DNA of 55,186 nt, from assembly GCF_010470675.1 (NCBI RefSeq), contig NZ_VOIQ01000007.1:1-55186 (forward strand), read 5' to 3'. A program made the position numbers and the translations under genes. The notes under the pieces were generated by a model. The model was not told where the DNA came from. It saw nothing but the letters and a program-made list of their open reading frames with translations, and did no database searches. The DNA is from Desulfovibrio sp. JC010 (GTDB taxonomy: Bacteria; Desulfobacterota; Desulfovibrionia; Desulfovibrionales; Desulfovibrionaceae). Below are positions 1,375-42,849 of this stretch, in pieces. Every line of letters begins with the position of its first letter. The first letter of the stretch is position 1.

Positions 1375-3177
1375 ATGCCCATTACCCCCGATATAATCCT
1401 TGTCCTAGTTGTTCTGGTTCTTGTTATCCTGTTGTTTGTCTTCGAATGGGTTCGTGTCGATATGGTCGGGATCATGGTTATGGTCTGCCTGCCTCTACTT
1501 GGATTGGTTACACCGGAACAGGCTATCAGCGGTTTGAGCAGTAACGCAGTTGTCTCCATCATCGCGGTAATCATCATTGGCGCAGGACTTGATAAAACCG
1601 GGGTTATGAACAAGCTGGCACATTTGATTCTCAGGGTTGCCGGAAAGGATGAAACCAAGATTACCTCCATGGTTTCGGCTACTGTGGCCGGTATTTCCGG
1701 GTTCATGCAGAACATAGGGGCTGCTGCGCTGTTTATGCCCGCTGCTCGCAGGATTTCTGCCCAGACCGGTGTTCCAGCCTCGCATATTCTTTTGCCGATG
1801 GCCTTTTGTGCTATAATCGGCGGAACTCTTACTCTGGTCGGTTCAAGTCCATTGATTCTGCTCAATGACCTGTTGGTGGTTCAGGGTGTGAAATACGAGC
1901 ATTTCGGCATGTTCAGCATGACACCCATTGGAGTGCTGCTGGTTATTGCCGCTCTGCTGTATTTCAGGTTGCTGGGCAAATGGATTCTTCCTCCAAGTAA
2001 GCAGGTAAAGGTCCACGGCCCCCTGTCCCCCATGCTCGATAAGACCTACCATGATATTGGCAGTATTTATGAGATGCGAATTCCGTCTGGATTTCAGGAA
2101 CAGACTCTCTCGGAATTAAGAATCCGCTCAAATTATGCCTGTTCAGTAGTAGCTGCATATAACCCGGTTACCCACAAAAGAAATAATGCCCCTCTGCGCG
2201 ACGACACTCTGGGGCCCGGCGATGTGCTTGCGGTCATCGGGGATAAACAGTTTATTTGCAAGCTGGCTGCTGATTACGGCTGGACTTATTCTGCTGAGCT
2301 AAAAGTTTTTTCCGATGACCTTTCCCCGACCAATGTGGGAATCATGGAAGGGATTGTATCGCCGCGCTCGCGCCTTGTGGGTAAAACCATCGGCGAGATT
2401 GAATTGCGCAAAAAGCTCGGTGTGGTTCCGCTGGCTGCCTTCAGCGGGCATGAGATGATCATCAGTGATCTGTCCAATCTGACCATCAGCGAAGGAGATG
2501 CTCTGCTCCTGCATGCCAAATGGAGCACCTTTCACCAGTTAAAGGACCAGAACGATCTTGTTTTCACCGAACCGATTCAGGGCGAACCCATTCGTGAGGA
2601 AAAAGCACCATGGGCCCTGGGCTGCCTTGCGGTGACCATGTTCATGATTCTGGTGCTTGATATCCAGCTTTCAATTGCGCTTCTTTTCGGGGCCATGGCT
2701 ATGATTCTCGGACGTGTGTTGACCATTGATGAAGCTTACCGCTCAGTGGACTGGATGACCGTGTTTCTGCTTGCCGGGCTGATTCCGCTGGGGCTGGCCT
2801 TCGAGAACACCGGGGCCGCGAAAATGATTGCCGATATGCTCATGAATGCTGTGGGCGTGCCATCGCCGACGGTTCTGCTGATCTGTATCGGGCTGCTGAC
2901 TTCTTTCTTCACCCTGTTTACGTCCAATGTGGGAGCCACGGTTCTATTGGTGCCGCTATCAATGAACCTCGCTCTTTCCTGCGGGGCAGATCCGCGCGTG
3001 GCGGCCATGACCGTAGCTTTGGCGGCTTCCAATACTTTTATTCTGCCCACCCATCAGGTCAATGCGCTGGTCATGCGGCCTGCCGGATTAAAGTCCGTGG
3101 ATTACCTGCGCGCCGGGACCGGGATGACTATTATTTTTATGATTGTGCTGGTGGCAGGGATGCAGGTGTTTTTTTAG
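1375..3177 (+). CDS. SLC13-type permease with two RCK_C (TrkA-C) domains
   Basis: A 600-residue inner-membrane transporter of the divalent anion:sodium symporter / ArsB-like superfamily. Hydrophobic segments fill residues 1-210 and 410-600; between them lie two soluble RCK_C-type domains (about 215-300 and 310-395), the layout of bacterial SLC13 proteins annotated as sulfate, dicarboxylate or cysteine-related carriers. A GASN-like segment (TSNVGATVLLVPLS) in the last third fits the family. The start ATG has aagga 14 bases upstream. It is monocistronic, with a terminator after it. A second member of the same family lies at 47890-49722. The substrate cannot be read from the sequence; sulfate or a C4-dicarboxylate would make sense in a sulfate reducer. 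Confidence 0.88.
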   Translation: MPITPDIILVLVVLVLVILLFVFEWVRVDMVGIMVMVCLPLLGLVTPEQAISGLSSNAVVSIIAVIIIGAGLDKTGVMNKLAHLILRVAGKDETKITSMVSATVAGISGFMQNIGAAALFMPAARRISAQTGVPASHILLPMAFCAIIGGTLTLVGSSPLILLNDLLVVQGVKYEHFGMFSMTPIGVLLVIAALLYFRLLGKWILPPSKQVKVHGPLSPMLDKTYHDIGSIYEMRIPSGFQEQTLSELRIRSNYACSVVAAYNPVTHKRNNAPLRDDTLGPGDVLAVIGDKQFICKLAADYGWTYSAELKVFSDDLSPTNVGIMEGIVSPRSRLVGKTIGEIELRKKLGVVPLAAFSGHEMIISDLSNLTISEGDALLLHAKWSTFHQLKDQNDLVFTEPIQGEPIREEKAPWALGCLAVTMFMILVLDIQLSIALLFGAMAMILGRVLTIDEAYRSVDWMTVFLLAGLIPLGLAFENTGAAKMIADMLMNAVGVPSPTVLLICIGLLTSFFTLFTSNVGATVLLVPLSMNLALSCGADPRVAAMTVALAASNTFILPTHQVNALVMRPAGLKSVDYLRAGTGMTIIFMIVLVAGMQVFF

Positions 3178-32207: not shown

Positions 32208-34655
32208 ATGCTGCCTGTCAATATCCTGAAATTCTGGGCTGAAACATTGCTGGCCCCGCGGGCTTTATTGCAGCGTAAATATGAGGCTTTCAAAGTCCTG
32301 CTGGAATATGATTCGCAGGCTCTTGATCTGGTGGCGGATCTTGAGGAACTATTCTACGGCGAAAGGCTGGCCGATCGCAATCAGGCTGGCAGCCTTCAGA
32401 AGCAGCTTTCTTCTGCTGTGTCCGGGATGATCGGAGAATTGAGGAAAATGCATCCTTATAAATTCCGGGATCTGCCTGAGGCTTTCCAGCGTATCGATGA
32501 TCATGCCCGGCATGCTCTGCTGATGCCCGGTGGGGATTCCGGCCCTCCGTATACAGTCCCCCTTGCTGCCGCCGGGGAGTGTCCTGAACTTGCCGGAGGC
32601 AAGGCTGCAAATCTGGGGCGGGTGCACGCGTTGGGCCATACTGAAGCACTGCCCGGATTTGTGGTCACGGCTAATGCTTTCCATGCCTTTGTGGATCATA
32701 ACAATTTGCGTGAAGAGCTGAATGAAAGGCTCAGTCGTATGGAAGTGGACAACGTTCGCTTGCTCTCTTCCATGACCCTTGAGTTGCAGGAACTCTTTCT
32801 GAACGGTGAAGTTCCGCCCGGAGTTGCCGGGGCCATAGAGCGCGGCTTGGAAACTTATCTGGACGGAACCGGAAAGCTGGCCGTGCGTTCCAGCGCACTG
32901 GCCGAAGACAGCGAAATTTCATTTGCCGGGCAGTATGCCAGCGAACTCAATGTCGATCCCGCCGAAGTGCTGGACGGCTACAAGCGTGTTCTGGCCGGGA
33001 AATATTGTCCCCGTGCGGTATCATACCGCATCTCCAACGGCTTGACCGACAACGATACCGCCATGGCCGTGCTCATCGTGCCCATGATCGATGCCCGCAG
33101 TTCCGGGGTGGTTTATTCTGTGGACCCGGACTGTCTCAGCAGGGACAGTGTCGGCATTTACGGAGTTTCCGGTCTGGGGGCTTCCCTTGTGGACGGCAGC
33201 GTGGTTCCGGTCAAGGCCTCTTTGCACCGGGGGAAGGAACCCCGTCCGGTCAGTGAATGCGGATTTGACCGTTCCGGGCTGCCGGATGAGAAAATGTTGG
33301 TTCAACTGGCAAAATGCGCACTCAAGCTTGAGGAGCAGTTCGGCTGTCCGCAGGATATGGAGTGGGCCGTGGACCGGGGAGGGCAGTTTCATATCCTCCA
33401 GACCCGGCCTTTGCAGCAGGAAGCGCATGGACAGCTTGTTTCGCCTGCTTCCCTCAACTCCATGCCGATCATGGACGGACTGGAACGGGCTGCCGGTGGA
33501 GCCGGATGCGGGGAAGTCTACTTTGCCCGCAGCGGCGCGGAAATTTCCCGTATCCCGGAGGGTGCCATCGTAGTTACACCGGCCTTGAAACCTTCACTGC
33601 TCAGTTTTGCGGCGAAAATCAACGGGGTGCTTTCCTCGGCCGGAAGCCGGGCCAGCCATTTCGGTTCCGTGGCAAGGGAGATGGGCATTCCCGTGCTGGT
33701 GGGTGATGTGTCTGATCGGTTGAAACCGGGCCAGTTGGTGACCGTGGACGGCATGGCCGGTGCTGTTTATGAAGGGTGCGTGGAAGACGTGCTGACCCGT
33801 TCCTGCGCGGACACACAGGTTTCGCCACGTGTTCTTGAGTTGTACAAGGGCATGATTTCTTCCATGGTCCATTTGAATCTAGTTGATCCCCATGGCGAAA
33901 ATTTCAGTGCCGAAGGGTGTGAATCTCTGCATGATCTGGTGCGTTATTGTCATGAAATGGCGGTACAGGAGATGTTTTCGCTGGTGGATAAGCGCGGGTT
34001 GGGTATGGGCCGATCCAAGCGGTTGCGGACCGAACTGCCGCTGGTGGTTTACCTGATTGATCTGGACCGGGGGCTTTATGCCGGAGCGCGCAGTCGAAAG
34101 GAGCTTTCCCCGGCAGACGTACTCTCCGTTCCCATGCAGGCTTTCTGGAAGGGGCTTTCCGATGAACGGGTGGTCTGGCCTGAAGAGATGACCCACGTGG
34201 ACTGGGAAGAGTTCGACCGCATGTCCGCCGGGATTTTCAGCAAGGATTCCAAACTGCTTGCCAGTTATGGATTGCTGGCTGAAGATTATCTGCATCTGCT
34301 GGTCCGTTTCGGATATCATTTTTCCGAGGTTGATTCCCTGTGCGGGGATGTTGCGGCCCAGAATTATGTGAAATTTCGTTTCAAGGGCGGCGGGGCCGGG
34401 GCTGAAAATAAAAAGCTGCGGCTGGAGTTCGTCAGCCGGGTGCTTGTCCATTTCGGATTTGAGACCGAGATCCGCGGGGATATGCTGGACGGGGTTAGCA
34501 GCCGTCTTGCTGCTGCCGACATACAAAAACAGCTGGTCGTAGTGGGCTACCTGATGGCGGTGACCCGGATGATGGATATGCGTCTGGATAACGCCGGGCA
34601 GGTGGACAGGGAATTTGAGAGCTTTATTGCCGCAGCGGAGGGGATTGATGGCTGA
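32208..34655 (+). CDS. PEP synthase/pyruvate phosphate dikinase-like protein with unusual C-terminal domain
   Basis: An 815-residue cytoplasmic protein. Residues 1-120 are helical and unrecognised. Residues 125-405 are the ATP-grasp PEP/pyruvate-binding domain: GGKAANLGRVHALG, LAVRSSALAEDSEISFAGQY and DMEWAVDRGGQFHILQTRPL. Residues about 430-530 are the swivelling phosphohistidine domain with H484 in AGSRASHFGSVAREMGIPVLVG, close to the usual GGxTSH motif. The PEP-binding TIM barrel of PEP synthase is absent; about 280 residues of unknown, mostly helical sequence replace it. The protein may therefore phosphorylate something other than pyruvate, as rifampin phosphotransferase does with a different third domain. 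Its stop overlaps the ATG of the phosphatase gene by eight bases. Confidence 0.82.
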   Translation: MLPVNILKFWAETLLAPRALLQRKYEAFKVLLEYDSQALDLVADLEELFYGERLADRNQAGSLQKQLSSAVSGMIGELRKMHPYKFRDLPEAFQRIDDHARHALLMPGGDSGPPYTVPLAAAGECPELAGGKAANLGRVHALGHTEALPGFVVTANAFHAFVDHNNLREELNERLSRMEVDNVRLLSSMTLELQELFLNGEVPPGVAGAIERGLETYLDGTGKLAVRSSALAEDSEISFAGQYASELNVDPAEVLDGYKRVLAGKYCPRAVSYRISNGLTDNDTAMAVLIVPMIDARSSGVVYSVDPDCLSRDSVGIYGVSGLGASLVDGSVVPVKASLHRGKEPRPVSECGFDRSGLPDEKMLVQLAKCALKLEEQFGCPQDMEWAVDRGGQFHILQTRPLQQEAHGQLVSPASLNSMPIMDGLERAAGGAGCGEVYFARSGAEISRIPEGAIVVTPALKPSLLSFAAKINGVLSSAGSRASHFGSVAREMGIPVLVGDVSDRLKPGQLVTVDGMAGAVYEGCVEDVLTRSCADTQVSPRVLELYKGMISSMVHLNLVDPHGENFSAEGCESLHDLVRYCHEMAVQEMFSLVDKRGLGMGRSKRLRTELPLVVYLIDLDRGLYAGARSRKELSPADVLSVPMQAFWKGLSDERVVWPEEMTHVDWEEFDRMSAGIFSKDSKLLASYGLLAEDYLHLLVRFGYHFSEVDSLCGDVAAQNYVKFRFKGGGAGAENKKLRLEFVSRVLVHFGFETEIRGDMLDGVSSRLAAADIQKQLVVVGYLMAVTRMMDMRLDNAGQVDREFESFIAAAEGIDG

Positions 34656-35727
34656 TCAGGAAAACGGGCATGCCTATAAAATTACATGGGTAACCGATCA
34701 ACTGGCCGTGGGCTGTGCGCCCATGAGTCATGCCCAGTTGCAATCCCTGAAAGAGCAGGGGATTGACGGCATCATCAACCTTTGCGGTGAGTTCTGCGAC
34801 CTGCATGAGATTGAGCAGAATGCCGGGTTTGAGGTTTATTATCTGCCTATTGAGGATGAGGAGGCACCCGGTCTGCTGGAACTGGAAAACGCGCTTGAAT
34901 GGCTGGATGAGTCCATTTATCTGGGCAAGAAGGTGCTCATCCATTGCCGTCACGGCATCGGCAGGACCGGGACCGTGCTTAATGCCTACCTGCTGCGGCG
35001 TGGGCTGGGCCACAAGCTGGCCGGGAAGAAGATGAAGGAGCTGCGTTCAAAGCCCGCCAATTTTTCCCAGTGGTGGACCATCCGCAAGTACGGGCGCAAA
35101 AGCGGAAAGCTCACCGCGCGTACTCCCACAGTTGAATTCACGCGCAAGGTCGATCTTTCCCCGTTTTTTAATGATTACCTGAAGCTGGTCAGTGAAGTGG
35201 AACAGCGGGCCGGGGAACTGGAAAACAGGCAGCAATGCGGTCTGGACCATGATCTCTGCTGTCGTACTCCGCTGAGTATGACTCTGGCCGAAGCCCTGCA
35301 CCTCAGTCATTGCGTCAACCTTGAACTGAGCCACGGGGAAAGGGTGGAGGTGATTGAAAAGGCCATGGCAACGGCGCGGATTGAAAAGCGGGCCATGCGC
35401 GAACTGGCCGCTGATAACGAAGCCGGATTCTGCCTGTCGGGCGTGGATTCGCCATGCCCGTTGCTGGAAGAAGGCAGATGCAGGCTGTTTGAATTCCGTC
35501 CCCTGCAATGCCGGGCTTTCGGGCTGGATTCATCTGAGAACGGACGTTTGTGGCGGGAAGTGCTCAGTCCCGGACTGGATTCCGTTTCCACGCAAATCTG
35601 GTTTGCCTGCACCGGAGCCATGCAGGGGGATTCCCTGCCCCGTTTTTCCCTGCCGGATGTTGTTTCCGGCAAGTTCATCGAAGTTCTCTTTAAATTGATG
35701 ATGGAGCAGGGAATTGATGATGCTTAG
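34648..35727 (+). CDS. Dual-specificity phosphatase fused to a YkgJ-like cysteine-cluster domain
   Basis: A 359-residue protein. The N-terminal 150 residues are a dual-specificity/tyrosine phosphatase domain with the complete P-loop HCRHGIGRTG (H99, C100, R106). The C-terminal 180 residues contain the cysteine pattern of YkgJ (UPF0153) Fe-S or zinc-cluster proteins: CGLDHDLCC, FCLSGVDSPCPLL, GRCRLFEFRPLQCRAFG. ATG 34648 is chosen because gcggagggg precedes it; TTG 34615 is possible. The overlap with the dikinase-like gene suggests the two proteins act on the same phosphorylated substrate or that the phosphatase resets the dikinase; this is inference. Confidence 0.85.
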   Translation: MADQENGHAYKITWVTDQLAVGCAPMSHAQLQSLKEQGIDGIINLCGEFCDLHEIEQNAGFEVYYLPIEDEEAPGLLELENALEWLDESIYLGKKVLIHCRHGIGRTGTVLNAYLLRRGLGHKLAGKKMKELRSKPANFSQWWTIRKYGRKSGKLTARTPTVEFTRKVDLSPFFNDYLKLVSEVEQRAGELENRQQCGLDHDLCCRTPLSMTLAEALHLSHCVNLELSHGERVEVIEKAMATARIEKRAMRELAADNEAGFCLSGVDSPCPLLEEGRCRLFEFRPLQCRAFGLDSSENGRLWREVLSPGLDSVSTQIWFACTGAMQGDSLPRFSLPDVVSGKFIEVLFKLMMEQGIDDA

Positions 35728-35736
35728 ATATTTGAA

Positions 35737-36336
35737 CTAGTCGTCGTCCCGGTGCTCAAAATCCCGGTGGCTGAGAATTCTTCCGTTTTGCGGGTCAATC
35801 ATGACCATCAGGGTCCTTTGCGCTGTGAAAAGATTGATCCGGTAGCAGAGCAGGCCGTCTATATTCTCAATTTCGGCCCGGTAGGCGGTGCTGCAGGTTT
35901 TGAGTTCTGCCTCACGAATGGCCTGTTCCATACTCAGTTTGCTTTTTTCTATTGGATCATAATATTTGCATATTTTTTCAATCACACTGGGCATGAATTC
36001 CGGCTGGCTGATACTCAGTATTTCCCCGGTTGCAAGTGAAGCCGTTACCTGCACGATTTCCTGCTTGCGGAGGATGTCTATTTCAACATGCCGGCTGCCG
36101 TTTTCTTCTCCCTCTATCTCCACTTCAACGGCAATTCCCTCTGCTTTTTCTTCAGCCTTGGCAACCAGTGCTGCAAGAGTGCAGTTGCTCTGCTGTGCGG
36201 CCTGTATGATATAATCCGCGCTTTTGATGTAGTCATCGCTGAAAAAGTCGTCGGCAATGGCTGAGATGGACCCGAAGGTTATGGTGATGGCGGCACATAA
36301 AACAATGAACGCTTCTTTCAAAATTGATTTATCCAT
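35737..36336 (-). CDS. Exported PepSY-domain protein
   Basis: A 199-residue protein with a signal peptide (about 1-28) and two PepSY-like domains; the second is the clearer (MEQAIREAELKT ... GRILSHRDFEH). PepSY proteins near two-component genes are thought to modulate the sensor or inhibit proteases. Ribosome binding site aggag before ATG. An operator-like element (36394-36422) shared with the promoter region of the 39305 gene lies 58 bases upstream. Confidence 0.78.
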   Translation of the reverse strand: MDKSILKEAFIVLCAAITITFGSISAIADDFFSDDYIKSADYIIQAAQQSNCTLAALVAKAEEKAEGIAVEVEIEGEENGSRHVEIDILRKQEIVQVTASLATGEILSISQPEFMPSVIEKICKYYDPIEKSKLSMEQAIREAELKTCSTAYRAEIENIDGLLCYRINLFTAQRTLMVMIDPQNGRILSHRDFEHRDDD

Positions 36337-36393: not shown

Positions 36394-36422
36394 TTACCCG
36401 GAAATTACTTGGCTGTAATTTT
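36394..36422. promoter_or_regulatory. Putative response-regulator operator, copy 1
   Basis: The element TTACC-N3-AAATTAC-N6-GTAATTTT is found here and at 39373-39401 with identical spacing. The inner part is a 7-bp inverted repeat (36402-36408 / 36415-36421); TTAC also recurs at an 11-bp step, as in OmpR-type direct-repeat sites. It sits between the kinase gene and the PepSY gene. Confidence 0.65.
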
Positions 36423-37812
36423 AATTTCTTGGAAAGCGAATCTCAAAAATGCTGCCTCCTTGCGAAGCCTCCTGAACCGTGACACTGCCGCCGTGGGCCT
36501 GCATTACCGCGCGGACAAGGCTTAAGCCCAGCCCCACGCCTTTTGTGGAACGGCTTTTATCTCCCCGGTAGAGCTTTTCAAAGATGCGTTCCCGTTCCTC
36601 TTCCGGGATTCCGGGGCCGCTGTCCTGTATGGAAATTACGGTAAATTCCTCTTCAAGCGCGGTTCTGAAAATAATTTTTCCGCCTTCCGGGGTGTATTTA
36701 AGTCCGTTGTCGCTCAGGTTGCCGAGGACCTGCAGGGTGCGCTGACGGTCTGCTGAAATCATGAAGTTATCAGCTTTATTGTCTATGATGATGTTGCGTT
36801 CTTCGGCAATTATTTCATAGAGATCAATGGTTTCTGTGATTAGTTCAGAGCAGGAAAGAGGTTCGGGTGCAAGATGCATCTGGCCTGTTTCCGCCTCGGT
36901 AATATCCATGAGCATGTTGATGAGTTTGTCGATGCGTTCTACATCCTCAGCACAATCCATGAGCACTTCCCGCTGTTCTTCTGCGGAAGCATCTGAAAGA
37001 AGGGTCTGTTCAATACGGGCTTTCATGCGGGCCAGCGGGGTTTTCAGGTCATGGCTGACATTGCCCAGAGTGTCGCGCATGGCGGTAATCAGGATTTCAA
37101 TCCGTTCCAGCATGATATTGAAAAGTTCAGCCAGTTCCCGCAATTCCCCGCTTTTTTCAAAGACCGGAACCCGGCTTTCCATGTTGCCGGATGAAACTTT
37201 TTTTGCTGTTGCGGCCAGTTCCCGTACCGGGCGCAGCACATGGCGGGAGAACATAATCCCACCGATTGCCCCCAGAACAATGATCCCGGAAATGGTGATC
37301 AGGAATACGCTTTGCAACCCCTCGACCATGAATTCCTGACGTCCGGTGGTCCGTCCGGTCTGTAGGGTGAATCCGTTATCCAGCGCAGTGATGAGTATAT
37401 CAAGGTCTGTTGGTGTGGGCAGGTTGAACGGTACCCATTTTGTCTGTTTAGGCAGGTCGGGGAGCAGAAAATGTTTTGAGTCCAGCTCATCAAGCTCCTG
37501 CGGTATGGTCAGCCAGACGGTTTTGCCGTCACCGTCCGTCAGGTGGATGAAAATATTACTGAATGTGTTGGCCTGATGCTGGCTGCGGATTGTACTCAGC
37601 AGCGACGCAAAACCTTTGTTTTTGTAGATGTTTTTATATACCTGCACCCGTTCGTTGATACGTTCCCGCTCCATCTGGGTCAGGTAAAAATCGAGCATAA
37701 ATGTGCTCAGGGCGAATAGGCAGAGCGTACTTCCCACAAAGAGCAGAAAGTACGCGGAAATTATGCGGTAGGAATTAAATAATTTTTTAACCCTTTTTTT
37801 CAGTGAGCACAT
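36421..37812 (-). CDS. Two-component sensor histidine kinase
   Basis: A 463-residue inner-membrane kinase of the OmpR-partner type: membrane segments at about 18-40 and 166-188 flanking a periplasmic sensor of 125 residues, HAMP (about 190-240), HisKA with H254 in NVSHDLKTPLARMK, and HATPase (NLSDNGLKYTPEGG, DSGPGIP, GVGLGLSLVRAV). It overlaps the upstream response-regulator gene by 26 bases. The ligand is unknown; the neighbouring Fe-S membrane protein and PepSY protein hint at redox or envelope stress. Confidence 0.93.
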   Translation of the reverse strand: MCSLKKRVKKLFNSYRIISAYFLLFVGSTLCLFALSTFMLDFYLTQMERERINERVQVYKNIYKNKGFASLLSTIRSQHQANTFSNIFIHLTDGDGKTVWLTIPQELDELDSKHFLLPDLPKQTKWVPFNLPTPTDLDILITALDNGFTLQTGRTTGRQEFMVEGLQSVFLITISGIIVLGAIGGIMFSRHVLRPVRELAATAKKVSSGNMESRVPVFEKSGELRELAELFNIMLERIEILITAMRDTLGNVSHDLKTPLARMKARIEQTLLSDASAEEQREVLMDCAEDVERIDKLINMLMDITEAETGQMHLAPEPLSCSELITETIDLYEIIAEERNIIIDNKADNFMISADRQRTLQVLGNLSDNGLKYTPEGGKIIFRTALEEEFTVISIQDSGPGIPEEERERIFEKLYRGDKSRSTKGVGLGLSLVRAVMQAHGGSVTVQEASQGGSIFEIRFPRN

Positions 37813-38467
37813 AGCCGACCCCGCGGATTGTGGAAATCAGGTTTTCAGCAAAGGGTTTGTCCACTTTGGAGCGCAGCCGGTGCATGAGCACTTCCACCAC
37901 ATTGGTCTGCGGGTTGAAACTGTAGTCCCAGATATGTTCGAGGATCATGGTCTTGGTGATCACCCGTCCGGAATTGTTCATCATGTATTCAAGAAGTCCG
38001 TATTCCCGTGCGTGCAGGATGATCGGTTCGCCGTCTCGGCTTACTTCGCGGGTGAAGCGGTCCAGAACCAGATCACCGACCTGTAATTTCGATTCTGCCG
38101 GGGTGCGCGAAGACCTGCGGATAAGGGCCTGCAAACGGGCCTGAAGTTCGACAAAGGAAAAGGGTTTGGTCAGGTAGTCGTCACCCCCGGCCTGCAGCCC
38201 GGAGACCTTGTCGTCCACACTCTGGCGGGCACTGAGGATGAGTACCGGGGTTTCCAGCGCGCGGCCCCGCATCTCGGCAATGATGCTCAGTCCGTCCCGG
38301 CCCGGAAGCATGAGGTCGATTACGGCTGCGTCATATTCCGTACTCAGGGCGAAGTTCAGCCCCTCGTTGCCGTCCGCTGCATGGTCCACGGTAAAGCCTG
38401 CTTCGCGCAGCCCTTTGGCAATGTACTCGGCAATGGTCGTGTCGTCTTCAACAATCAAAATCCGCAA
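37787..38467 (-). CDS. OmpR-family response regulator
   Basis: A 226-residue regulator: receiver domain with D51 in VIDLMLPGRDG, acidic pair E7-D8-D9 and conserved K in YLTKPFSF, then a winged-helix DNA-binding domain (EYGLLEYMMNNSGRVITKTM, VVEVLMHRLRSKVDKPF). It is cognate to the overlapping kinase. The twin elements at 36394-36422 and 39373-39401 are its likely binding sites. Confidence 0.95.
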   Translation of the reverse strand: MRILIVEDDTTIAEYIAKGLREAGFTVDHAADGNEGLNFALSTEYDAAVIDLMLPGRDGLSIIAEMRGRALETPVLILSARQSVDDKVSGLQAGGDDYLTKPFSFVELQARLQALIRRSSRTPAESKLQVGDLVLDRFTREVSRDGEPIILHAREYGLLEYMMNNSGRVITKTMILEHIWDYSFNPQTNVVEVLMHRLRSKVDKPFAENLISTIRGVGYVLTEKKG

Positions 38468-38522: not shown

Positions 38523-39305
38523 TTACCATTGATATACAAACAAGACCAGATAGGTGGCGGCCAGATAAGCGGTCATGACCAGAGCTGAGAACAGGCCGGG
38601 ATTGATTTTCAGGCCGAGCAGTTCCAGTGACAGGGCATCTGCCTTGGACGGGCAGACATTATCGAGGCAGTTGAAGCAGCTCAGGCAGTCATCGCCGCAG
38701 ATTTCATTTTTGGATGAAGGGTTGACCTGCATGGGGCAGACCCGGTCGCATTTTCCGCAATCAATGCAGGTTTCTGTATTGCGCTTGATTTTGCAGATTT
38801 TAATCACTTTGTTGATCAGGTTGTAGCCCGCTTTTTGAAAGCACATGTATTTACAGAAGAAGTTGGGAATGAACAGGGGGATCAGCAGGACCGCAAAATG
38901 TTTTGCTTTAATGAAGTTCCATGAGAAAGCAGTGGATTTGTACATTTCGATGTGGTCACCGAAGTAGCTGACCCCTTTGACGGTGAAGAGGTAGAGGAAG
39001 AAGCCCAGCAGCGGGTAACGGAGCATGCGCAGCCATTTGTCATAGGGCTGGGGGATGTTGAATTGCAGCTTGGGAAAGAGCTTATTGCCCACGCGGGTGG
39101 CAAAGTAGGACGCAGCCCCGAAGGGACAGGCCCAGCCGCAGAAGAACGGGCCAAAAAGAATTATGGAACCGAGTACCAGATATTCACTTTCCAGTTCAAA
39201 ATCGATGCCCATAAGCTTGCCCAGAAAGTAAAAGTTTGCGGCAAAGAAAAAGCGTATGGCGTCCCTTGAAAAGGTCAGCGGTGTGTCTTTTTTATAAAGT
39301 TTCAT
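38523..39305 (-). CDS. 4Fe-4S membrane protein (NapH/CcoG-like)
   Basis: A 260-residue protein with about five membrane segments, a CGWACPFGA motif between helices and two 4Fe-4S motifs near the C terminus: CIDCGKCDRVCPM and CLSCFNCLDNVCP. This is the plan of NapH-, NosR- and RdxA-like electron-transfer proteins. It is the first gene of the set with the two-component system and PepSY gene; the operator-like element 39373-39401 lies 68 bases before its start. Electron donor and acceptor are unknown. Confidence 0.88.
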   Translation of the reverse strand: MKLYKKDTPLTFSRDAIRFFFAANFYFLGKLMGIDFELESEYLVLGSIILFGPFFCGWACPFGAASYFATRVGNKLFPKLQFNIPQPYDKWLRMLRYPLLGFFLYLFTVKGVSYFGDHIEMYKSTAFSWNFIKAKHFAVLLIPLFIPNFFCKYMCFQKAGYNLINKVIKICKIKRNTETCIDCGKCDRVCPMQVNPSSKNEICGDDCLSCFNCLDNVCPSKADALSLELLGLKINPGLFSALVMTAYLAATYLVLFVYQW

Positions 39306-39372: not shown

Positions 39373-39401
39373 TTACCTGAAAATTACACGGGCGTAATTT
39401 T
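39373..39401. promoter_or_regulatory. Putative response-regulator operator, copy 2
   Basis: Same element as at 36394-36422: TTACC-N3-AAATTAC-N6-GTAATTTT, with the inner inverted repeat at 39381-39387 / 39394-39400. It lies upstream of the 4Fe-4S membrane protein gene and 11 bases from the left terminator repeat of the defence-like cassette. Confidence 0.65.
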
Positions 39402-39412
39402 GCAAAATAAAC

Positions 39413-39452
39413 CCCCTCTTCGCCACTTAAGGCAAAGAGGGGCTGCATAATT
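39413..39452 (-). repeat. Terminator repeat, left copy (flanks RloAB-like cassette)
   Basis: A 40-base sequence identical to 41520-41559 except one base. It forms a 12-bp hairpin (one mismatch) with loop acttaa, followed on the minus strand by tttatttt. It therefore works as the terminator of the RloB-like gene, which ends 30 bases earlier. Confidence 0.9.
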
Positions 39453-39481
39453 TTAATAAGTGTTGATGAAATTCTGAAATT

Positions 39482-40111
39482 TTATTGAGTGGGATCACTC
39501 TGGATTTCGATAATCAGATCATTCAGCCATTTATATTTAGATTGCTTGCGCATCTGCTCAAGGTGTTTGTGGTCAATCTTTGCGATATATTTGGAATGAT
39601 CGTTTGAGTTAATTTTCTTTTGCTTACAGGTGTCCTTGCAGTTTTTGCACTTCCTTGTGGAGACTTTTCCGGTTTTTGTCAGTTCCAGTAAAAAGCATTC
39701 ACAGCAGTTGGGTTCTATTGCGAAGAGTTTTATTTGCGACTTGTCTGGTTTTTTGAAGAGCAGTCTTTTGTTTGGGATCTTTTTGCAGGCTTCCGCAATG
39801 ATTTGTTCTGTATTCAGTCTGTCGTATTCAATAAAATCAGAATCCATAATGACTATGATTTTATCAAAGCTGTTGTCTTTGTAGAGTATGGCTTCTTTGA
39901 CAACATCAATCGGGCTGCGGCCATTTCCGAATGAAGGCCGAACGCTGTAGTTTTCGTGTGCCGGGTAGAAATACGAGATTATTTTGTATAATTCCCGACA
40001 AGCCTGATCTTCTCCAAAAACAAGTACAGATGTTTTTTGTAGTCTTTGGGGGCGTTGTTTTCTGCGTTGAAACTTTCTGCTCTTACGGGAGCCTTCTGAT
40101 CTTTTAGCCAT
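39482..40111 (-). CDS. RloB/TOPRIM-like protein of candidate defence module
   Basis: A 209-residue protein with a very basic N terminus (about 10 Arg/Lys in 25 residues). The segment VLVFGEDQACRELYK followed by IIVIMDSDF has the spacing of a TOPRIM-type Glu ... DxD metal site, as in RloB-family proteins. The segment EPNCCECFLLEL resembles the RloB motif around the last conserved acid, and a CKNCKDTCK cluster follows, possibly zinc-binding. Its ATG shares a base with the stop of the ATPase gene (TAATG), so the two are translated together. A nuclease triggered by the ATPase is the likely role. Family assignment is by motif only. Confidence 0.62.
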   Translation of the reverse strand: MAKRSEGSRKSRKFQRRKQRPQRLQKTSVLVFGEDQACRELYKIISYFYPAHENYSVRPSFGNGRSPIDVVKEAILYKDNSFDKIIVIMDSDFIEYDRLNTEQIIAEACKKIPNKRLLFKKPDKSQIKLFAIEPNCCECFLLELTKTGKVSTRKCKNCKDTCKQKKINSNDHSKYIAKIDHKHLEQMRKQSKYKWLNDLIIEIQSDPTQ

Positions 40112-41394
40112 TAGCTTACCTGCGGGATGGCACCGTATTTTCCGGTGATGTAATTCATGAAGAAGTTATCCCGCTCTTTGACATCCTTTACGTCATTGAG
40201 AAACCATGCCTGACTCTCAAGAGTTTTGCGGTCTTTTTCCACCAGCACAATCTGTCTTTTGCTGAGTTGGTTTATGACGTTGACGCTGTGGCTGCTGCAG
40301 ATGAGCTGGCCACGCAATTCTTCACCGGACTGCTCTCTGAAACGTTCAATCATTTCTTCAACAACAATAGGATGCAGTCCCACTTCTATTTCATCAATGA
40401 TGGCAACTCCCCCTGTTGTAAGAGCTGCTATGATCGGAAAAAGGACTTTAATGAGTTGCTTGGTTCCGTCTGACTCAAGGTTGATATCGAATCTGTATTC
40501 AAAGCCATTGATTTCATGTATCGCTTCGCACACTTCAACTTTACCTGCAAAGAAATTAGTATACACCTTAGGGGTGGGAATACTCTCGTCGGGCATATTG
40601 TCCAGCAAGCCTTTGATTTTCTTTACGGGTTCAGAATCAAGAAACTCTTGTTCTATTTCGATTTCTGAATGCTCAATCCGCTCAATTCCTACATCGAATG
40701 ACTTCAGATAATTGGAAACGTTGTCTATTATGTTCAAGTCCTTGAATGCTTTTGTTGCTTCTATCACTGGAACATAATTGTTGTATTTGTATACAAAAAA
40801 TAGATTCAATCCTTCCAATATTTCTTCAAGTCCAGTTTCGTGTTTCAATGAATCAGAAACAGCAAGAAGCGATTCACTATGTTCCAGTTCACGTTTCATT
40901 TTATCAATGCTGAATTTGGCTTTTGTTCCTTTTGTTATCTGGATTTCGCCGTCATCATCCAGCTCTCTTTTAAATATATAATTCCAACGCCCTGTTTTGG
41001 GGTTTGACTCATAAAGCTCTTCATAATCAACTTGTGCAGCCGCACGGTCATAACCAAGTGAGTAGCGGAAAATTGTTCCTGAAATTTCGCATACAAGTTC
41101 AAAATCAGAGATCGGACTCGGTTTTTCTGACAACCTGAAGAAATCAATTTTTAGTGCTTTTTGCCTGTTTGTCATAAAAGAAAGAAGAGCAGAAAGGGTC
41201 TTGATCAGGTTCGACTTACCGGAAGCATTTGCTCCGATGCATGTGATCACGGAAGGCACGTAATGATTTTCCGCCAGCTCAATAAAACGGGGATCATCGG
41301 AATATTTTTTATCAACACTTTTAAAATCAAAGTCGAGGCACTGCTCATCCTTAAATGACCAGGCATTGTCAAAACAAAAAGAGAGAATTATCAC
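40111..41394 (-). CDS. AAA/ABC-type ATPase (RloA/AAA_15-like) of candidate defence module
   Basis: A 427-residue cytoplasmic ATPase of the RecF/OLD/ABC class: Walker A GANASGKSNL (54-63), signature-like SDGTKQLIK, Walker B GGVAIIDEIEVGLHP and switch histidine in ICSSHSVNVI. Such ATPases pair with TOPRIM or nuclease partners in OLD, Gabija, PARIS and Rlo-type systems. Start is GTG with ggag nine bases upstream; a weak candidate promoter (TTGACG 41494-41499, 17 bases, TAACAA) lies upstream. The gene is A+T-richer than its neighbours, a sign of transfer. Confidence 0.85.
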   Translation of the reverse strand: MIILSFCFDNAWSFKDEQCLDFDFKSVDKKYSDDPRFIELAENHYVPSVITCIGANASGKSNLIKTLSALLSFMTNRQKALKIDFFRLSEKPSPISDFELVCEISGTIFRYSLGYDRAAAQVDYEELYESNPKTGRWNYIFKRELDDDGEIQITKGTKAKFSIDKMKRELEHSESLLAVSDSLKHETGLEEILEGLNLFFVYKYNNYVPVIEATKAFKDLNIIDNVSNYLKSFDVGIERIEHSEIEIEQEFLDSEPVKKIKGLLDNMPDESIPTPKVYTNFFAGKVEVCEAIHEINGFEYRFDINLESDGTKQLIKVLFPIIAALTTGGVAIIDEIEVGLHPIVVEEMIERFREQSGEELRGQLICSSHSVNVINQLSKRQIVLVEKDRKTLESQAWFLNDVKDVKERDNFFMNYITGKYGAIPQVS

Positions 41395-41519
41395 TTAAGA
41401 CTCCGTAATAAGTTTGTGAACTAGGCTGTTTTCGGAAGATTATCGCCGAAAAAGCTGTGAAGCATATTTTTTGTTAATTACTTTTAACCTATGCGTCAAC
41501 GGTTGATTGAAAATATAAG

Positions 41520-41559
41520 CCCCTCTTCGCCACTTAAGGCAAAGAGGGGCTGTATAATT
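41520..41559 (-). repeat. Terminator repeat, right copy
   Basis: Direct repeat of 39413-39452 (39 of 40 bases equal). It is the terminator of the adenylating-enzyme gene, which ends 12 bases away. The cassette 39482-41394 lies exactly between the two copies. Confidence 0.9.
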
Positions 41560-41571
41560 ATTACAATGAAT

Positions 41572-42849
41572 CTACATGAACCGCTTATCAATAACCCTCC
41601 GGATTTTTCCGGTGGTTTCCACACGCGGGATGCCGCCCGAGGGGACGATCAGGATCTTGAAGGCCCGGATGTTGTTCTTGTCGCGGTTGGTTCCTACTGC
41701 GGGGATGTCGCCGCTTAAGCATTCGTAGACCTTTGAAGTCAGCTGAAAATCATCCACGGCGTCACAGTCTGCGGCTTCAACGCGGACGATGATATCTGTT
41801 TTATCGGCGTTGAGGTCCAGCCTGACCTGGAAGACCGGGGCCAGTTCATCGAACTTGCCGAGGCAGGAACCTAGCTGGTCCAGGGTCATGGAATCATGGC
41901 TGAATTCGATGATTTCATCAGAGCGTTGCAGCAGCTTGAAGCGCGGGCTGGTTCGGCCGCATTCGCATTCGCCTTCCATCCATTCAATGTCGTCGCCCAC
42001 CTTCATGCGGATGGCCGGCTGCAGGACGCGGATCAGGGAGGTGGCGATGATGGCACCGTCGTCGTCCTTTTCCACTATGCAGTCGGGTTGCAGTACATGG
42101 TGTTCGGTTCCGGTGCAGTGTTCGCACTGGAAACCGATGGGGCCTACTTCTGCCGCGCCGTATCCGGCAGAATGGAAGGTTGCATCGGGCCAGACCGAAG
42201 CCAGATATTTTTCCTGTTCCGTGGTCAGTGGAGTGGAGGCAAAGGCTACTTTTTCAATATGCAGCTTGATGCCGCGCCGGGTTGCTTCCTGTGCGATCTG
42301 GACCAGTGTGGGCGAGATGCCGAAGAGGGTGTTCGGCTGCATCATTTCCAGATATTCCAAAGTCTTTTCCACTGGCTGGTTGTCGGTGATGGGCAGGATG
42401 TTGCATCCTATCATCTCCAGTGCGCGGTAGCTTGTCAGGAACCCGGTCCAGAAAGCCCCGGCCCGGATGCAGTTGGCCACCAAGTCATCCGGGGTGATGC
42501 CGCAGGCTGTGAGGCCGTATGCCGCGCCAAAGCATACTTCATGAAATTCATCCAGACTGTAACGGGCAAAACTCATCCGCCCGGAAGTGCCTCCGGTGGA
42601 GAATTTGTAGAATCCCCCGTTATTGCGGGTGTACAGGGACTTTTTGCAGGTTTCCCCTTCGGTGCAGAGGGTCTGCTTGTCAATCACGGGGAGCTTTTTC
42701 AGCTCATCCAGATTCTTCAGCGGCAGTTCGATGCCCTGATATAGTTTTTTATAAAAAGGGGCCTGAACAGCGATGGAAAGAATATGATTCAGCTTTTCCA
42801 ACTTGTATAATTCAGCACTCTTCTGGTCTGAGAAATTGAGATCGGTCAT
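41572..42849 (-). CDS. PaaK/coenzyme F390 synthetase-like adenylating enzyme
   Basis: A 425-residue member of the phenylacetate-CoA ligase branch of the AMP-forming superfamily. Visible: the phosphate-binding loop FSTGGTSGRMSFARY, the SAGYGAAEVGP segment of the adenylate site, a cysteine pair region (CEHC, CECG) and a C-terminal domain ending GGIPRVETTGKIRRV. In Desulfovibrio these are usually annotated as phenylacetate-CoA ligase or F390 synthetase, but the acid substrate is unknown. Confidence 0.85.
   Translation of the reverse strand: MTDLNFSDQKSAELYKLEKLNHILSIAVQAPFYKKLYQGIELPLKNLDELKKLPVIDKQTLCTEGETCKKSLYTRNNGGFYKFSTGGTSGRMSFARYSLDEFHEVCFGAAYGLTACGITPDDLVANCIRAGAFWTGFLTSYRALEMIGCNILPITDNQPVEKTLEYLEMMQPNTLFGISPTLVQIAQEATRRGIKLHIEKVAFASTPLTTEQEKYLASVWPDATFHSAGYGAAEVGPIGFQCEHCTGTEHHVLQPDCIVEKDDDGAIIATSLIRVLQPAIRMKVGDDIEWMEGECECGRTSPRFKLLQRSDEIIEFSHDSMTLDQLGSCLGKFDELAPVFQVRLDLNADKTDIIVRVEAADCDAVDDFQLTSKVYECLSGDIPAVGTNRDKNNIRAFKILIVPSGGIPRVETTGKIRRVIDKRFM

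Follow-up and report, generated by a model that had tools for sequence, protein, structure and literature searches.

AbiL of Lactococcus, in which the gene of an AAA ATPase is followed by that of an RloB/TOPRIM-like protein, is the best-matching described counterpart of the locus reported here. A related arrangement is found in PARIS, where an AAA_21 ATPase (AriA) is combined with a TOPRIM-type partner (AriB) bearing DUF4435, whereas in the GajA/OLD proteins of Gabija type the TOPRIM and ATPase parts are fused into one protein. AbiL and RloB have been linked to each other, with AbiLii placed within RloB and RloB related to OLD_TOPRIM (PMC10440598). AbiLii from Fusobacterium inhibits growth of E. 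coli, whereas AbiLii from Lactococcus does not (PMC3985639). The Desulfovibrio locus shares the gene order of AbiL and differs from it in a very divergent AbiLii, which carries six cysteines in both genomes that have it.

With regard to gene acquisition, two further comparisons are relevant. Minimal mobile elements spread by natural transformation, and integrons comprise cassette arrays, an IntI integrase and attC core sites. In Neisseria, minimal mobile elements consist of differing whole-gene cassettes between two conserved genes (PMC3898611), a situation also met at the second site described below, whereas a copied local terminator on both sides is not described in the available part of that paper. 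Likeness to integron arrays is one of layout, in that the cassettes at the second site are separated by hairpin-forming repeats; the hairpins here differ in that they resemble ordinary terminators, copied from whichever gene is resident, and vary from site to site. To our knowledge, no name or enzyme has been assigned to such a terminator-copying insertion, and none of the literature matches listed had a title concerned with terminators being copied as genes insert; one listed title (PMC5381666) concerned compensatory evolution of terminators.

The window, i.e. the whole stretch of DNA that was analysed, comprises 55,186 nucleotides (positions 1-55,186 of contig NZ_VOIQ01000007.1 of Desulfovibrio sp. 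JC010, whose genome is labelled G000 below). Chances appear to us evenly balanced that an AbiL-type cassette was acquired here at the shared terminator of two conserved convergent genes, beside an accessory operon, and that this acquisition left the local terminator in copy on both of its sides. The features of the locus are collected in Table 1.

Table 1. Features of the AbiL locus and its surroundings in the window (HK, histidine kinase; RR, response regulator)
Feature	Position	Strand	Length	Remarks
Gene A, conserved left neighbour	34615..35727	+		adjoins the ligase end in six insert-free genomes
PepSY-like protein	35737..36336	-	199 aa	assigned by eye; kept in G007
Sensor histidine kinase (HK)	36421..37812	-	463 aa	assigned by eye; kept in G007
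Response regulator (RR)	37787..38467	-	226 aa	assigned by eye; kept in G007
NapH-like Fe-S membrane protein	38523..39305	-	260 aa	NCBIfam NapH/MauN 1e-18, below cut-off
Palindrome AAAATTAC-N6-GTAATTTT	39380..39401			before the NapH-like gene, 11 bases from the hairpin; kept in G007
Left terminator copy	39413..39442	-		now terminates the AbiL pair; sequence to its left similar to that at the empty site
Divergent AbiLii/RloB-like protein	39482..40111	-	209 aa	two motifs and a six-cysteine cluster
AbiLi-like AAA ATPase	40111..41394	-	427 aa	GTG start; PADLOC AbiLi, Pfam AAA_21
Inverted repeat GCTGTTTTCGG / CCGAAAAAGC	41425..41455			leader of the AbiL pair; present in both carriers
Right terminator copy	41520..41549	-		terminator of the PaaK-like CoA ligase gene; right junction of the ancestral site
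PaaK-like CoA ligase, conserved right neighbour	41572..42849	-		family matches below cut-offs

A preliminary description of this DNA had proposed an A+T-rich two-gene defence candidate lying between two direct copies of a terminator. Both parts were borne out. The two AbiL reading frames overlap by one base (TAATG), and their GC contents of 40.3% and 39.7% compare with 48-57% in 10 other genes; GC at third codon positions (GC3) is 41-45% for the pair and 56-69% for the neighbouring PepSY-HK-RR-NapH operon, which gives the pair a foreign look. The 30-nt hairpin CCCCTCTTCGCCACTTAAGGCAAAGAGGGG (given as the plus strand) occurs identically at both positions, with none expected from shuffled sequences, and over 40 bases (39413-39452 and 41520-41559) the copies agree in 39. 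Folded as the transcribed strand, they reach -28.1 and -30.1 kcal/mol with z-scores of -4.7 and -7.3. In a consensus terminator scan both copies had the longest stems among the 8 hits, a total that is no excess over the 9.5 found in shuffles. The right copy continues into the ligase gene just like the empty site of relatives. The inverted repeat in the leader of the pair gave a weak RNA fold (z -1.3), and nothing reached the Rfam gathering threshold between 35000 and 44000. The palindrome before the next gene was confirmed as well; in the other carrier genome, G007, it stands in two promoter regions of the PepSY-HK-RR-NapH operon (L110:7527 and 10508), the second copy lying between the HK and PepSY genes, and it is possibly the operator of the response regulator.

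That the hairpin might be a common dispersed repeat unrelated to insertions had been considered at the outset. This origin was rejected, as the assembly of the organism (4.39 Mb, 64 contigs) holds just these two copies with up to 3 mismatches allowed, and the general stem pattern gave 0-2 matches per strand in each of the 17 genomes of the genus.

PADLOC assigned the ATPase to AbiLi (3.1e-59, 198.7 bits), with AriA as the next family at 108.2 bits, and Pfam assigned it to AAA_21 (5.2e-28) over residues 53-375 of 427. Walker A lies at residues 54-61 and Walker B reads IIDE; Both Walker motifs, the switch histidine and a stretch of ESxG type (LESDG) were discernible in 11 homologues. In the G007 protein (L013 / L032) Walker B reads IIDK, with DE in the window copy and in all 10 other aligned homologues. 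The Walker B glutamate has a catalytic role, and the G007 ATPase may be inactive through its loss.

Distant AbiLi relatives were present in 28 plasmid and 9 phage records, every one below 60% identity. No close relative was found in the genome-contig database, from which records near the genome of the window may be absent, and no match to sequences of solved structures was obtained at 0.001. At 8 of 10 loci of distant homologues the next gene looked like RloB by eye, the exceptions being a short unrelated reading frame (L020) and a PIN-looking gene (L028); all five of the eight partners that were scanned lay above the Pfam RloB cut-off. An AbiLi-RloB pair in G037, a genome of another family, is flanked by 61-nt direct repeats of 97% identity (L021:262-322 and 2940-3000), which occur twice in that genome and do not clearly look like terminators. 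In G051 (L022), the repeats next to AbiL genes consist of tandem units of low complexity and were excluded from the count.

The partner protein is more divergent. It matched AbiLii of PADLOC weakly, at 9.1e-4 for the window and 7.4e-4 for the G007 copy, and fell below the cut-off (31.5) of Pfam RloB PF13707, where the window protein was not listed at E 0.1 and the G007 copy scored 19.0 bits. A profile comparison (hhalign) with the RloB partners of the distant homologues gave E 6.6e-5 at a probability of 64, and the motifs VFGED..ELY and IVIMDSD resemble those of these partners. The AbiLii match and the profile comparison point tentatively to the proposed kinship with RloB; the Pfam threshold was not reached. 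The TOPRIM label of the preliminary description derives from the placement of AbiLii in RloB, kin to OLD_TOPRIM, as stated in PMC10440598. The suggested comparisons with AriB and with OLD or Gabija brought out differences: unlike AriB, the partner gave no DUF4435 match, and it is a separate reading frame, with TOPRIM not fused to the ATPase.

Six cysteines (C136, C137, C139, C155, C158 and C162) are common to the AbiLii proteins of both carriers. An AlphaFold model of AbiLii had a pLDDT of 50, too poor for a structure search. Among 348 genomes of the class, two have this type of AbiLii; a separate sample of 395 genomes of the phylum contained it once, in the genome of the window itself; close relatives occurred neither in plasmids nor in viral contigs. 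By its AbiLi match and the RloB-type partners of its homologues, the pair is a predicted AbiL-like two-gene system, i.e. of a known defence type as had been proposed, with a very divergent AbiLii variant whose own match to RloB is weak.

Relatives of the genus were compared at the same site. The ligase gene was found at 75% identity or more in 8 of 17 genomes, of which two (G000 and G007) carry the cassette. The remaining six have gene A followed directly by the ligase end, so a site occupied by cassette and both copies in all relatives, which would have spoken against insertion, was not what the comparison returned. Single-terminator relatives devoid of the cassette, as had been predicted, do exist: G003 and G016 have a single recognisable hairpin at the empty site, in the position of the right copy of the window, and G001, G009, G010 and G011 have different hairpin-like sequences there (by eye). 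The extra DNA is larger than the 39413-41559 first proposed, reaching from about 35730 to about 41520 relative to genomes without the insert. The PepSY-HK-RR-NapH operon is likewise missing from the ligase site in all six non-carriers, and the two states therefore differ by about 5.8 kb and not by the cassette alone. No genome with operon, single hairpin and no cassette was found among the relatives, which leaves the insertion of the cassette itself as an inference of ours. Entry at the terminator with its duplication, as originally put forward, is thus in line with the single-hairpin relatives and, modestly, with the flanks described below, whereas insertion of the cassette alone was not seen. 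One kind of insert was observed at the ligase site.

This distribution also fits a single 5.8-kb island, consisting of the PepSY-HK-RR-NapH operon and the AbiL pair with an internal terminator, that was gained once by an ancestor and lost at least twice by recombination between conserved flanks. The NapH-like gene (above 36% identity) and the cassette are co-distributed, being present in G000 and G007 of the 17 genomes of the genus, and the cassette joins the hairpins at corresponding points in the two carriers, except for about 29 extra bases before the right hairpin of G007. Divergence of G000 and G007 at fourfold sites was 0.45-1.05 for the islands and 0.50-0.96 for core genes, with AbiLii (1.57) and AbiLi residues 126-427 (0.39, mosaic) as outliers. 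Divergence close to that of core genes, as seen for both cassette and NapH-like gene, speaks against a very recent shared acquisition; recent insertion accounts for it less well than long-standing common presence followed by losses.

The carriers are not sisters, and several losses of such an island would be needed. Five flanking genes, concatenated from seven genomes (8,355 aligned sites; 15,487 with rpoB), grouped G007 with G009 and G016 at a support of 100. A sister grouping of G000 and G007 was rejected by the AU test (p 3.6e-10), also when rpoB was added, and gene A alone gave p 0.023 against it. The rpoB tree agreed with that of the flanking genes at modest support, and the ligase tree set G009 beside G000. 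In addition, the GC3 values of operon and AbiL pair differ, and the copies within each genome are more alike than an old duplication would allow, unless they were homogenised. We consider the single island possible, though rather unlikely.

The history of the two copies was approached by comparing hairpins and flanks. Within a genome the two hairpins agree in 30 of 30 (G000) and 28 of 30 bases (G007), and in 23-24 of 30 between the carriers; six columns group the copies by genome, and no column groups them by position. The G000 pair is nearest to the single copy of G003 (28 of 30), and the G007 pair is nearest to that of G016 (25 of 30 compared with 23-24, and 34-35 of 40 compared with 28-31 when five bases on each side are included). 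As likeness is higher within than between genomes, one old duplication does not explain the copies. The terminator would have been duplicated separately in each lineage, or else the copies would have been homogenised in each lineage.

Flanks were tested over the 30 bases left of the hairpin in 21 comparisons, and all p values are uncorrected. The left copy resembled the left flank of the empty site (uncorrected p 0.004 for G000/G003 and 0.0005 for G007/G016), whereas the left flank of the right copy of G000 did not resemble those of G003, G016 and G009 (uncorrected p 0.35 to 0.70). The right copy of G007 also resembled the left flank of G016 (uncorrected p 0.0045). When the nine hairpin-adjacent bases were left out, the values for the left copy rose to 0.068 (G000/G003) and 0.055 (G007/G016), and G000 left against G009 gave 0.0015, likewise uncorrected. 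This pattern would be the arrangement expected from a duplicated target, to which it lends modest support.

The main alternative is homogenisation of hairpins. The cassette would have entered through ordinary recombination, bringing a terminator of its own, and nearby hairpins would have overwritten each other by gene conversion or template switching, so that the bracket is a by-product of proximity and not a footprint of entry. The six columns shared within genomes, with none shared by position, agree with this, as does the identity between copies, which is mostly limited to the hairpin. The resemblance of the left copy to the empty-site flank points modestly the other way. With the further evidence given below, we regard homogenisation as a doubtful explanation that nevertheless deserves attention. 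The copies are either young or homogenised, and the arrangement recurs.

A second site illustrates this recurrence. Screening 377 kb for direct repeats of near-identical sequence gave 7 hits and led to another hairpin, present in exactly two identical copies in the genome, 820 bp apart on contig C11. They enclose genes for a DUF4160 protein and a 163-aa protein with a helix-turn-helix (HTH, below cut-off), a pair that gave no PADLOC match and is toxin-antitoxin-like by look. An ATPase-PIN pair (PADLOC candidate PDC-M07) and a CstA-like gene adjoin them, and the hotspot beside CstA, comprising both gene pairs and the two terminators, is at L206:7008-9610. The CstA stretch had matches in 14 genomes, of which 10, including that of the window, were inspected. 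In G003, G001 and G010 an ATP-synthase gamma-like gene end (by eye), one hairpin and CstA follow each other. In G009 the ATPase-PIN pair comes with what is left of the HTH gene, a degenerate copy of the hairpin and a ParE/RHH pair; a further hairpin stands where the CstA contig starts, the site being spread over two contigs that we infer to be joined. G007 (ParE/RHH) and G016 (a caspase-domain gene and the DUF4160/HTH pair) have one hairpin each, which speaks against a terminator copy being left by each acquisition. Copied terminators were thus present in two of the four occupied genomes. Judged by its gene content, the CstA site appears to collect small defence-like cassettes. Both copies in G000 have a loop one nucleotide shorter than in single-copy relatives, which fits a recent duplication, as would stand against homogenisation, and fits homogenisation equally well.

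Local hairpin pairs were then surveyed over 2,016,575 bases on 8 contigs (46% of the genome). Of 354 intergenic hairpins, 258 were single, 22 occurred in two copies, 33 in 3-9 and 41 in at least 10 copies; this spread of hairpins would favour homogenisation. Two- and three-copy listings were merged by hand into 24 groups, and copies within 15 kb were called local. Thirteen groups were local and 11 were not, compared with a mean of 0.84 and a maximum of 6 in 20000 random placements. When three tRNA-linked groups, one coding group and one weak group were set aside, 8 of the remaining 19 groups were local (mean 0.67 expected, maximum 5 in 20000 draws), and these 8 are the convincing local pairs. 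The suggested search for other genes at the hairpin of the AbiL locus itself gave none, since it is not reused in the genome, whereas other hairpins do form such pairs.

Defence or toxin-antitoxin-like genes lie inside three of the eight convincing pairs, two of the three being so named by look. These are AbiL, the DUF4160/HTH pair, and a ParE/RHH-looking pair with a 180-aa gene and no PADLOC match; the comparison with relatives covered the first two. The third set lies between near-identical hairpins at L126:13498-14832 (contig C11 of G000). The other five pairs enclose genes without a defence look (by eye), one set being probably paralogous. Pairs around ordinary-looking genes mean that the footprint, which had been proposed for a defence cassette, is not specific to defence, and they agree with homogenisation. 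A dispersed near-palindromic hairpin CTTAAACCCTTTTGCAAAAGGGTTTAAG had about 85 matches, counted strand by strand, in 1.2 Mb of sampled contigs, which may correspond to half as many places; it is a further sign that hairpins spread in this genome. Duplicated tRNA-Ser(GGA) and tRNA-Arg(ACG) genes of G000, each with its terminator, were noted at L128:3812-6055 and L219:2542-2895, respectively, and the tRNA-Ser(GGA) pair encloses a 455-aa gene.

Direct repeats around a foreign-looking cassette may also stem from a conventional mobile element such as an integrase island, a transposon or an integron, as its attachment sites or as duplications of its target. There is a case of att-like layout elsewhere in the genome, where a 100-nt repeat of a tRNA-Val end with its terminator brackets RHS-looking fragments (L157:14537-17850, contig C2 of G000). 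At the AbiL locus, by contrast, the window contains no tRNA, none of the six island reading frames (three judged by eye) was recognised as an integrase or transposase, and the hairpin has no further use in the genome. We therefore hold a conventional element to be very improbable.

If the AbiL cassette was acquired at the terminator, its activity and its mobility may be pictured as follows. By analogy with the family, the AbiLi ATPase would sense infection or restrain its partner, and the TOPRIM-like AbiLii, once released, would cut nucleic acid or otherwise halt the infected cell. Each transcription unit would keep its own terminator, so that the cassette could arrive or leave without read-through into its neighbours, and loss could proceed by recombination between the repeats. 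An excised unit of cassette and terminator might also recombine by short homology at a resident terminator, giving the same structure and keeping the copies alike. As a wider and distinctly tentative proposal, which we rate as unlikely, intrinsic terminators of the genus may serve as landing sites for cassettes without an integrase, with the resident terminator copied to the far side, which would allow arrays of defence and toxin-antitoxin genes, set apart by copies of one local hairpin, to build up and to be lost cleanly.

If true, the arrival of a cassette could be read from the copies of the resident terminator on its two sides. Such a footprint would explain how newcomers leave the transcription of their neighbours undisturbed and would permit a simple genome search for recent arrivals. 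The cysteine-bearing AbiLii variant would be a putative member of a little-studied group of effectors.
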